A DNA stretch of 64,000 nt from Clostridia bacterium (GTDB lineage Bacteria; Bacillota; Clostridia; UBA1381; UBA9506): assembly GCA_017399695.1 (NCBI GenBank), contig JAFQBK010000016.1:1-64000 (forward strand), read 5' to 3'. Within the stretch, counting starts at the first letter, position 1. Each line of letters opens with the position of its first letter. Both the position numbers and the translations under genes were made by a program. Below, piece after piece: positions 53,772 through 62,737 of the stretch. The notes under the pieces were generated by a model that did not search any database, was not told where the DNA came from, and saw nothing but the letters and a program-made list of their open reading frames with translations.

Positions 53772-55064
53772 TTACTTCCTTTCCTTAACCGCCAAAGCAT
53801 GTGTGTCAAAGCCTTCGACGGTAGCAATATTGTAGGCGTGCTCTCTGACGCGCTCAAAACCTTCGCGGCTTGCGTAGCCGACAGAGGAGCGTTTTAAGAA
53901 GTCCATGACGGAAACGCTTGAGTAGGTTTTTGCAAAACCGCCGGTTGGCAGAATCGCGTTTGGTCCTAATACAAAATTACAAAGTGTAACGGGAGTATAT
54001 TCGCCAAGCAGAATTTCGCCTGCGTTCTGAATTTTTTCTAAAACAGCAAACGGGTCTTCTGTCATAACTTCCATATGCTCGGGTGCATATTCGTTAACAA
54101 AGTCAATGGATTCCTCTAAAGATTCGGTCAGAATAACACCGCCGTATGTATTGAAGTTCGTGGTAACAAAACTTCTGCGCTTTTCCGAAATTTTTTCAAG
54201 TTGGCGGTCGATAATCGGCAGAACCTTTTCAACCAACTCGCGGGAGTGAGTTACTAAAAGTGCCGCAGAATCGGGACCGTGCTCGGCTTCAATCATAACA
54301 TCCAAAGCACATTTTTCCGGGTCAGCTTTTTCATCCGCCAAAATAATAACCTCACTCGGGCCTGCGGGCAGACCTGCGTCAATGTGGTTGGCAAGTACGC
54401 GCTTTGCAGCAGTTGCGTAAGCATTTCCGGGTCCGATGATTTTATGGCATTTCGGGATGGTTTCTGTACCATATGCAACAGCGGCAACCGCCTGAATACC
54501 ACCCACCTTATAAATTTCGGTAATGCCGATGATTTTAGCAGCGGCTAAAATTGCATCATCTACTTCGCCTTTTTCGTTTGGAGGAGTTACAACAACAATC
54601 TTCGGCACATTTGCTACAACGGCAGGGATACCGAGCATTAAAAGAACGGACGGAAAGCTTCCTTTGCCGCGGGGAACATAAAGGCAAACATCAACGATAG
54701 GAGTTGTTTTTTCGCCGACCATCAGCCCTTTATCAACATTAGTAAACCACATTTCTTCCGGCATCTGCTTGGAATGAAAATCGCGGATGTTTTTCGCTGC
54801 ATAGGCAATGGAATCACGTACTTTAGGGTCTAAACGTGCGTAACCTGCTTCGATTTCTTCAGTAGTAACTTTAATTTTGTCCTGCGTTAAAGTGACTCGG
54901 TCGAATTTTTCCGTGTATTTTAATACAGCGCTATCACCGTTGTCGCGGATGTCATTTGAAACATCAATCGCAAGCTTCATCTGTTCGCTGATATCAAGCT
55001 CGGCGCGCTTTAATACAAAACTTTTTTCCTCTGCGCTCAAATCTTTCCAGACACGAATTTTCAT
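53772..55064 (-). CDS. hisD: divergent histidinol dehydrogenase homologue (HisD-like)
   Basis: The 430-residue protein is clearly HisD-family: KVGGIQAVAAVAYGTETIPK, GLPAGPSEV and AEHGPDS, with the catalytic E329-H330 pair in APEHMEVM. The zinc ligands of Escherichia coli HisD (Gln259, His262, Asp360, His419) read E259, H262, N363 and H422. The substrate histidine 367 reads A370. So the fold and NAD region are kept while the metal and substrate site has changed. It heads a five-gene operon. AAAGGAGAT lies upstream. A relative acting on another alcohol is likely. Confidence 0.8.
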   Translation of the reverse strand: MKIRVWKDLSAEEKSFVLKRAELDISEQMKLAIDVSNDIRDNGDSAVLKYTEKFDRVTLTQDKIKVTTEEIEAGYARLDPKVRDSIAYAAKNIRDFHSKQMPEEMWFTNVDKGLMVGEKTTPIVDVCLYVPRGKGSFPSVLLMLGIPAVVANVPKIVVVTPPNEKGEVDDAILAAAKIIGITEIYKVGGIQAVAAVAYGTETIPKCHKIIGPGNAYATAAKRVLANHIDAGLPAGPSEVIILADEKADPEKCALDVMIEAEHGPDSAALLVTHSRELVEKVLPIIDRQLEKISEKRRSFVTTNFNTYGGVILTESLEESIDFVNEYAPEHMEVMTEDPFAVLEKIQNAGEILLGEYTPVTLCNFVLGPNAILPTGGFAKTYSSVSVMDFLKRSSVGYASREGFERVREHAYNIATVEGFDTHALAVKERK

Positions 55065-55131
55065 GGTTTACCTATCTCCTTTATTCATCCTCCTGCCTTG
55101 CAGGAATAGTATGTTTTAGCACAATAAATAT

Positions 55132-55160
55132 ATTATAACGGATTCGTGTCATAATTTCAA
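55132..55160 (-). promoter_or_regulatory. sigma-A promoter of hisD-like operon
   Basis: On the minus strand TTGAAA and TATAAT are separated by 17 bp, about 70 bases before the ATG. Confidence 0.75.
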
Positions 55161-55240
55161 GAAAATCCTCATAAATTTTAATAATTATTACCATATTTTA
55201 TGAAATTCAGTAAATAGTTAAAAATATTATGTTAACCTAT

Positions 55241-55364
55241 GGGTAAAAAACTTGCGTAAGTTATTCACATTGATAACAGACTTATCAACAGAAAAAAGCT
55301 CTATAATCGTCGATTTTTCATAAGTTATCAACATTATCAACAGGTTATCAACAGTTTTTTACCC
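55241..55364 (+). promoter_or_regulatory. DnaA-box-like cluster inside 12-bp inverted repeat
   Basis: TTATCAACA occurs at 55282, 55325, 55334 and 55345, and TTATTCACA at 55261, all on the + strand. The cluster is bounded by GGGTAAAAAACT (55241-55252) and its exact complement (55353-55364). AT-rich DNA lies to the left. The 397-base gap 55065-55461 holds this, the hisD-like promoter, and no other gene I can see. Confidence 0.6.
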
Positions 55365-55461
55365 ACAAAAAATATGTTTGTAAACAAAAGATGAACGGCA
55401 TATTCAGGGGATTTGGGAGAGGTTTACATAAAACCAAGATTATCGGGGTGCGAACAGAAAT

Positions 55462-56502
55462 ATGAAAAATGAAATGAAACAAGCGGTTAAAATCGGAGCA
55501 ATTTATTCAGGGGCAGTGATTGGCGCCGGCTTTGCATCGGGTCAGGAGCTGTTGTTATTTTTTGCGCGCTTTGGCATCCGCGGTGCTTGGGGCCTGGTGC
55601 TTGCAGGAATTTTGTTTATTTTGCTTGCTGTAATGATTTTATCTGCAGGGAAACAGCGAGCAAATGGTGATTTTAAGACCTATATCAGACAGATTTTTGG
55701 AACAAATTTAGCAGAGGTTTATTATTTGATTATTCAGATTTTTATGGCAGTTTCATTCTGTGTGATGATTTCGGGCAGCGATGCATTATTCTGCGAACAA
55801 TTTGGATTTCCTAAAGGGGTAGGAGCGTTGCTTTCTGCTTTGTTTTGTTTTTTTATCTTACAAAAAGGCGCAAACTGCTTAGCAATTACAAATTTAATCT
55901 TAGTTCCATTGATGACTGTTGGGATGATTTTAGTTTGCGTGTGGTTTTTACTGATGCAGACCGAGCCGGTATGGTTTTCCGGTACAGACCTTAGAGGGAA
56001 TATTTTTCTTTCGGCAATTTTATATGTCAGTTATAATATGATGACGGCTGCGGCGGTTTTGGTACCCATCAGCAAAACAGCAAGTTGTAAAAAGACGGCA
56101 ATGCTCGGCGGCGCACTTGGCGGTGGCTTGTTGATTCTGCTTGCCGTTTTGGTGTTTGTAGTGTTAGTATTTGCGCAAAATATGATGTTTCTCGGAGAAA
56201 TGCCGATTCTTAGGGTATCGCAAACACTCGGGATGTGGGTTTCTGTATTGTATGCAGTAGTGCTTTTAATGGCGATGATGACTACTGCAGTAGCAAACGG
56301 TTTTTCTGTGATGGAGCACTTTACCGCTAAAGGCGGAAACCGCCGGCTTTATGCCGTACTTCTGTGTTTAGCGTCAGTCCTTGCGGCAAAAATCCCTTTT
56401 TCAAAAATGCTGGATACATGCTATACCTTTTTTGGTTGTTTGGGGATTTGCTTTTTGAGCGCTGTGGTGTACGATTGGTTTAGAAATCGAAAATTTAAAT
56501 AA
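55462..56502 (+). CDS. YkvI-family membrane transporter
   Basis: The 346-residue protein has about ten membrane segments and the YkvI N-terminus (GAIYSGAVIGAGFASGQELLLFF). The family belongs to the amino-acid-transporter-like superfamily; substrates are unknown. It is divergent from the hisD-like operon and shares its regulatory gap. Confidence 0.8.
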   Translation: MKNEMKQAVKIGAIYSGAVIGAGFASGQELLLFFARFGIRGAWGLVLAGILFILLAVMILSAGKQRANGDFKTYIRQIFGTNLAEVYYLIIQIFMAVSFCVMISGSDALFCEQFGFPKGVGALLSALFCFFILQKGANCLAITNLILVPLMTVGMILVCVWFLLMQTEPVWFSGTDLRGNIFLSAILYVSYNMMTAAAVLVPISKTASCKKTAMLGGALGGGLLILLAVLVFVVLVFAQNMMFLGEMPILRVSQTLGMWVSVLYAVVLLMAMMTTAVANGFSVMEHFTAKGGNRRLYAVLLCLASVLAAKIPFSKMLDTCYTFFGCLGICFLSAVVYDWFRNRKFK

Positions 56503-61843: not shown

Positions 61844-62737
61844 ATGGAAAAAAGATTTTCGGTTTCTAAAATTTTATTGAACGGATTTTTTATTCTGTTC
61901 TCTCTGTGCTTCCTGCTTCCATTTCTGTTGGTAGTATCGGTATCCTTTTCCTCGGAAGCATCCATTGAGGCTGTGGGCTATACATTACTTCCCTCAGAGT
62001 TTTCATTAGAGGGCTATTTGTATGTATTCCAGAATCCGCAACAGATTATCGACGCATACATTGTCACGGCATTTACAGCGTTTTTTGGTACGCTTTGTGC
62101 TCTGGTCGTAATGTCGATGGTGGCGTATTCACTTTCCAGACGTGACTTTGCATACCGTGGCGGATTGACATTGTTTATCTTTATTACAATGATTTTCTCC
62201 GGTGGTTTGGTTCCAAGCTATATTATTAATACACAGTACCTTGGTCTTGGTAATAACATATTAATTTATATTCTGCCAGGTCTTGCGAGTGCTTGGCATA
62301 TCGTAATTCTGCGAACCTTCTTCCAGGACTTGCCGATGGAATTGGTTGAGTCTGCAAAGCTTGACGGTGCAAGAGAAATTACGATTCTTTCGAGAATTAT
62401 TATTCCTTTGTCCAAACCGGTTTTAGCGACGGTTGGCCTTTTAATTCTCTTGGGTAGATGGAACGACTGGAACACATCACTCATTTATATTACGAACCAG
62501 AAACTTTACACCTTGCAGTATCTCTTACAGAGAATCCTGCGTGAGGTTGAATTTATTCAGGCGATGGCGAAAGAAATGCCAACCGGTATCAGCGCAGCGC
62601 AGATTGCGGGCGACCTCCCAACCGAGAGTATGCGTTTTGCGCTGGCCATCGTGGCAGCGGGACCGATGCTTGTCGTATTCCCGTTCTTCCAGAAATATTT
62701 CGTATCCGGACTGACGGTTGGTGCAGTAAAAGGCTGA
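61844..62737 (+). CDS. sugar ABC transporter permease (LplC-like, CUT1)
   Basis: The 297-residue second permease has six membrane segments and the EAA loop ESAKLDGAREITILSRIIIPLSKP. It starts after AGGAGGAAGC, 11 bases from the first permease, and pairs with it to form the channel. Confidence 0.92.
   Translation: MEKRFSVSKILLNGFFILFSLCFLLPFLLVVSVSFSSEASIEAVGYTLLPSEFSLEGYLYVFQNPQQIIDAYIVTAFTAFFGTLCALVVMSMVAYSLSRRDFAYRGGLTLFIFITMIFSGGLVPSYIINTQYLGLGNNILIYILPGLASAWHIVILRTFFQDLPMELVESAKLDGAREITILSRIIIPLSKPVLATVGLLILLGRWNDWNTSLIYITNQKLYTLQYLLQRILREVEFIQAMAKEMPTGISAAQIAGDLPTESMRFALAIVAAGPMLVVFPFFQKYFVSGLTVGAVKG

Follow-up and report, generated by a model that had tools for sequence, protein, structure and literature searches.

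An extra-oriC DnaA-box array enclosed by XerD-like half-sites in Clostridia: a candidate site for DnaA titration or remodelling

In Bacillus subtilis, six clusters of DnaA boxes outside oriC keep the pool of free DnaA low, and cells from which all six are removed initiate earlier (Okumura 2012, as relayed in PMC5295017 and PMC13220808); the Escherichia coli sites datA and DARS2 depend on IHF or Fis (PMC5295017, PMC13220808). XerD has been proposed to act as a site-specific unloader of SMC at sites in the terminus region of B. subtilis (Karaboja 2021, as relayed in PMC12322038 and PMC8242196), and published dif sites include the XerD arms TTATGTTAACC of Sulfurimonas denitrificans, TTATGTAAACC of Syntrophus aciditrophicus and TTATGTAAACT of Myxococcus (PMC2731167). 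DnaA-trios and the layout of clostridial oriC regions have been described as well (PMC7561715). Our literature search, which left most subscription papers outside its reach, found nothing that joins XerD half-sites with DnaA boxes. Such a combination is what we describe here for a clostridial genome, starting from a locus in the window (that is, the whole stretch of 64,000 nucleotides analysed).

The locus contains five DnaA boxes within 93 bases (55261-55353), all on the plus strand and comprising four copies of TTATCAACA and one of TTATTCACA; the count, direction and AT-rich surroundings given by an earlier sequence-only reading hold, and the adjoining DNA is 81% A+T. The features are as follows.

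53772-55064, minus strand: hisD, histidinol dehydrogenase (Pfam PF00815, E=1e-150; TIGR00069, E=1.2e-142)
55132-55160, minus strand: predicted hisD promoter, TTGAAA-17-TATAAT, 11/12 matches, outside the element
55227-55237, plus strand: left flanking motif, TTATGTTAACC, 99% mean column conservation over 17 loci, no adjoining XerC arm
55240-55252, plus strand: left half of an inverted repeat, TGGGTAAAAAACT, in 1/17 loci, mean column conservation 0.48
55261-55269, plus strand: DnaA box A1, TTATTCACA, at the same place in 17/17 family loci, 23-24 bp past the left arm
55270-55278, plus strand: degenerate middle box of triplet A, TTGATAACA, from the alignment and the box positions
55282-55290, plus strand: DnaA box A3, TTATCAACA, from the alignment
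55325-55333, plus strand: DnaA box B1, TTATCAACA, from the alignment
55334-55342, plus strand: DnaA box B2, TTATCAACA, directly abutting B1
55345-55353, plus strand: DnaA box B3, TTATCAACA, from the alignment
55353-55365, plus strand: right half of the inverted repeat, AGTTTTTTACCCA, unconserved
55421-55431, minus strand: right flanking motif, TTATGTAAACC as read on the minus strand (GGTTTACATAA on the plus strand), 99% mean column conservation
55462-56502, plus strand: membrane-protein gene, divergent from hisD, a homologue of which adjoins the element in nearly all loci of the family

The density of the boxes sets this locus apart within its genome. The whole 1.69-Mb assembly holds 36 copies of TTATCAACA (6 for the reversed control), and a group of four occurs at the window site only, whereas about 1.5e-8 such groups would be expected from 36 randomly placed copies. 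When 40 relatives were searched by BLASTN, nearly all members of the family proved to carry the cluster. Of 20 family genomes, 13 have the B1-B2-B3 triple, each exactly once (reversed control 0), and a search of 75 further genomes of the order did not find it. In an alignment of 17 family loci, the two box triplets keep fixed offsets and the arms (that is, the flanking motifs) start 193-197 bp apart in every case, with a mean column conservation of 0.99 for each arm and of 0.89 and 0.94 for the two triplets, against about 0.6 for the intervening and surrounding DNA (flanks about 59%). The array, its order and its spacing are thus conserved across the family while the intervening DNA is only about 60% conserved, and the locus carries several boxes outside oriC, in numbers above chance. 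The middle box of triplet A, degenerate here, reads TTATTAACA or TTATCAACA in some relatives. In two genomes (G008 and G012) hisD is missing from the locus, yet the element keeps its place next to the membrane-protein gene, which also speaks for the titration or remodelling reading favoured below. Just past triplet B lies a AAACAAATGTTTG-like palindrome (55364-55385), partly conserved in most but not all family loci, which is possibly a further binding site.

The limits of the element are not those first proposed. The sequence-only reading took the cluster to be bounded by a perfect 12-bp inverted repeat; the TGGGTAAAAAACT/AGTTTTTTACCCA repeat is indeed perfect (over 13 bp), but as a boundary it misleads, because it is unconserved, being private to the host genome among the 17 aligned family loci, and it is therefore no part of the conserved element. 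The conserved boundary is formed by the arms at 55227-55237 and 55421-55431, which lie beyond the stretch that reading had described and had escaped it. They constitute an outward-facing inverted pair, TTATGTWAACY...RGTTTACATAA, around both box triplets.

The arm sequences TTATGTTAACC, TTATGTAAACC and TTATGTAAACT match published XerD arms of dif letter for letter, and the XerD-arm pattern of dif, TTATGTNAAN, is present at the element; the comparison is with dif sites of other organisms, no dif having been found in the host contigs searched, so that the host motif is a candidate XerD arm. An XerC arm at 6-bp separation is absent, with 1/11 and 3/11 matches at the two arms, and is missing at all copies of the element, so that we rejected the flanking motif as a complete dif. 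An apparent XerC arm in two genomes (G008 and G010) proved to be the ribosome-binding site of the neighbouring membrane-protein gene. A 28-bp dif was not found in contigs C4, C14, C15 and C16 and part of C11, where the best-scoring candidate (C15:65510) was weak and was not accepted. The host genome encodes an XerD above the NCBIfam cut-off, and a relative near the terminus.

The arms are rare and paired. GTTWACATAA occurs nine times in the genome, with six copies in three close pairs (0.0085 pairs expected): two at the window site, two around a second box triplet near pyrH and two on C4, the other three lying inside genes. The C4 pair (62492/62671, spanning 62492-62680), which has a cdaA/ybbR-like operon on one side and an S-layer gene on the other, faces inwards and is without DnaA boxes; arms and boxes are thus separable, which speaks against the reading favoured below. 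In another genome (G039:C1, L090 5861-5886), two XerD-like arms, GTTTACATAA and TTATGTAAAC, form a palindrome laid out like dif, with a few bases between them, again without DnaA boxes.

Taken together, the flanking motif is most likely an XerD-binding site. The alternative with a lesser, though appreciable, chance of being correct is that it is the site of another protein working with DnaA, perhaps a nucleoid-associated protein or a regulator, which would be compatible with either a titration or an operator role. In its favour, no dif was found in the contigs examined, the motif corresponds to only one half of dif, and further copies of the arm lie close to some oriC/dnaA regions (L142, L149, L151 and L152). 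Against it stand the letter-for-letter match, which extends to the natural variants TTATGTTAACC and TTATGTAAACC/T, and the pyrimidine at arm position 11, which is kept at copies of the element but not at most chance copies.

The same architecture recurs elsewhere in the class. A search of 391 genomes for the arm pair TTATGTAAAC-N160-190-GTTTACATA, in which DnaA boxes were no criterion, matched 12 genomes (reversed pattern 0), one of which (G005) belongs to the family of the window. Between the arms, 10 of these 12 carry three to six DnaA-box-like 9-mers (shuffle p <=0.004; reversed control 0-1). Among 2.9 million viral contigs the same pattern gave 29 pairs, each with one box at most; at least three boxes thus lie between the arms in 10/12 class genomes versus 0/29 viral pairs (Fisher p=6e-8, some of the viral matches being near-duplicates). 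The clostridial pairs are found at serS-trmK, pdxS, rnc-hisD and galE (pdxS, serS, trmK, rnc and galE being named from translated neighbours rather than family searches), and have total lengths of 182-183, 191-192 and 203 bp, a spacing that fits the helical repeat (p ~0.005, in a small test of 7 locus groups with few independent loci). Tandem arm pairs are not clearly above their control (about 7 genomes), several being fortuitous occurrences within genes, and look genuine only where boxes accompany them. Matches outside the family from a contig scan had been selected for boxes and were excluded from the independent evidence.

Within the host genome, the second DnaA-box triplet (G000:C11:61792-61964) lies upstream of pyrH-frr-uppS-cdsA and is conserved in L042, L046, L058, L078, L080 and L083; most copies are flanked by two arms in the same direction, and in the closest relatives these are 160-163 bp apart. 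That the architecture turned up beside different genes from family to family, in a search with no demand for boxes, argues that it, and not a single locus, is under selection. A box cluster between serS and a trmK-like gene, with the same arms, was also observed in another family of the order (L136, L147, L157, L159 and L162-L165).

Given this anatomy, the B. subtilis clusters and the partner proteins of E. coli datA and DARS2, we favour, as an evenly balanced proposition, the reading that the locus is an extra-oriC DnaA-box cluster at which DnaA is titrated or remodelled, gated by XerD-like binding on either side. The sequence-only reading had offered a DnaA titration or regulatory site, an operator for another protein, and part of an unusual origin; the first is the best supported of the three, given the conserved array, a host DnaA that carries the DNA-binding domain PF08299 and the occurrence of the 9-mer at the host's own oriC, where the boxes upstream of dnaN are TTATCCACA, TTATCAACA and TTATTCACA, although the binding itself is predicted from sequence. 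The domain IV recognition helix of the host protein reads GGRNHATILNGI, against GGRDHTTVIHAH in the closest solved structure, 8btg (GGRNHATI versus GGRDHTTV), which we take to be B. subtilis DnaA. Since the helix differs from that of B. subtilis, the boxes here are putative sites for the host DnaA, and the change may be linked to the TTATYAACA boxes (that is, A at position 6).

Under this titration or remodelling reading, DnaA would form a short same-direction oligomer on two box triplets at fixed spacing; DnaA, probably as ATP-DnaA, would bind cooperatively and stay held, leaving less of it free, and the lowered pool would delay or time initiation, as with the B. subtilis clusters. A flanking protein, most likely XerD, would occupy the XerD half of dif alone on both sides, and two such proteins, with about 18-19 helical turns between them and the helical face held constant, could loop or bend the array. 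The loop may then gate the loading or release of DnaA, comparable to IHF and Fis at E. coli datA and DARS. In this scheme it is initiation, and not the neighbouring genes, that the site would control.

The main functional rival is a local operator, which we consider unlikely: the array, under DnaA control, would mainly regulate transcription of hisD, of the divergent membrane-protein gene, or of both. The product of the latter gave no Pfam or NCBIfam match, and we take it to resemble YkvI/BrnQ-type permeases. The intergenic position between divergent genes speaks for an operator, as does the permease gene that adjoins in nearly all family loci; moreover, DnaA represses or activates several genes of this kind in B. 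subtilis (PMC4447404), as at sda, ywlC or trmE. The predicted hisD promoter, however, lies at least 67 bp beyond the left arm and none was found facing the permease gene, the architecture also adjoins the unrelated genes pyrH, trmK, pdxS, rnc and galE, and the arms of the pyrH copy do not point along the gene. We also rejected the flanking motif as the promoter -10 element of the two divergent genes, because its orientation differs in the pyrH and C4 copies. An RNA reading was rejected as Rfam gave no match to the element, and a mobile element or plasmid piece was rejected likewise (72,556 plasmids gave no match, the copies are syntenic within the family, and the arm pairs of viral contigs lack box clusters).

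More doubtful still is an XerD-dependent site for SMC unloading or chromosome folding, where DnaA would serve to load XerD, block it or set its timing. A pair of XerD half-sites lacking XerC arms would suit such a role, and the skew maximum of C15 at about 124-152 kb leaves about 70-95 kb between the window site and the GC-skew terminus; for this copy the reading may hold. The pyrH and G321 copies, however, lie inside replichores with no skew switch nearby, and DnaA boxes are no known part of such sites.

The chromosomal context also bears on the last alternative. Cumulative GC skew reaches its minimum on C14 (52-60 kb), away from the window site, and together with the DnaA-trios (a run of six, TAGTAGTAATAGTAGTAG) places oriC at C14:58.1-58.4 kb, beside dnaN (L004 8861-9964) and not beside dnaA (L003 4327-5679), which lies with recF on C16. 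None of dnaA, dnaN and rpmH adjoins the window site, whose flanks are hisD and the permease gene, as the sequence-only reading had recognized in calling this context unlike that of oriC. A second or relocated oriC is barely credible: the site does have a DnaA-box cluster, with dense same-direction boxes beside AT-rich DNA between divergent genes, but the skew is positive on either side of 55.3 kb without a switch and no run of three TAR trinucleotides occurs in 55080-55460, so that the suggestion of an unusual origin is unsupported.

Returning to the titration or remodelling site, a conserved DnaA array accompanied by two further sites at set positions would be a concrete candidate for the tuning of free DnaA in Firmicutes without the datA/DARS system of E. 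coli. Should XerD be the second protein, one regulatory element would serve both the beginning and the end of the chromosome cycle. The pairing of arms and boxes in Clostridia hints at an undescribed link between the start and finish of chromosome replication. We would go further only tentatively, and think it improbable rather than probable, that two XerD half-sites at a helically phased distance loop a DnaA oligomer and so couple the initiator to the dimer-resolution and SMC-unloading protein; the timing of initiation would then sense termination or segregation, and the locus would represent an undescribed class of element in Clostridia.

Compared with known systems, the element can be set beside the B. 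subtilis clusters, as an intergenic group of DnaA boxes outside oriC, those of B. subtilis being proposed, in the accounts that relay them, to hold DnaA and so delay initiation. It differs in its loci, in its two fixed box triplets and in its conserved TTATGTWAACY arms at a fixed distance, of which we found no description for the B. subtilis clusters in PMC5295017 and PMC13220808. With dif it shares the sequence of the XerD arm, yet it has neither an XerC arm nor a 6-bp core, its two half-sites are about 195 bp apart, and it does not lie at a skew switch. Like the XerD-bound SMC-unloading sites of B. subtilis (Karaboja 2021, as relayed), it would offer XerD a putative site without recombination; unlike these sites as there described, its half-sites are paired, enclose DnaA boxes and occur within replichores, not only near the terminus. 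Finally, it resembles E. coli datA, DARS1 and DARS2 in placing DnaA boxes away from oriC. The putative partner would be XerD-like rather than IHF or Fis, but just as the action of datA and DARS2 needs a second, site-specific DNA-bending protein, the element described here would have its putative second protein at the arms.
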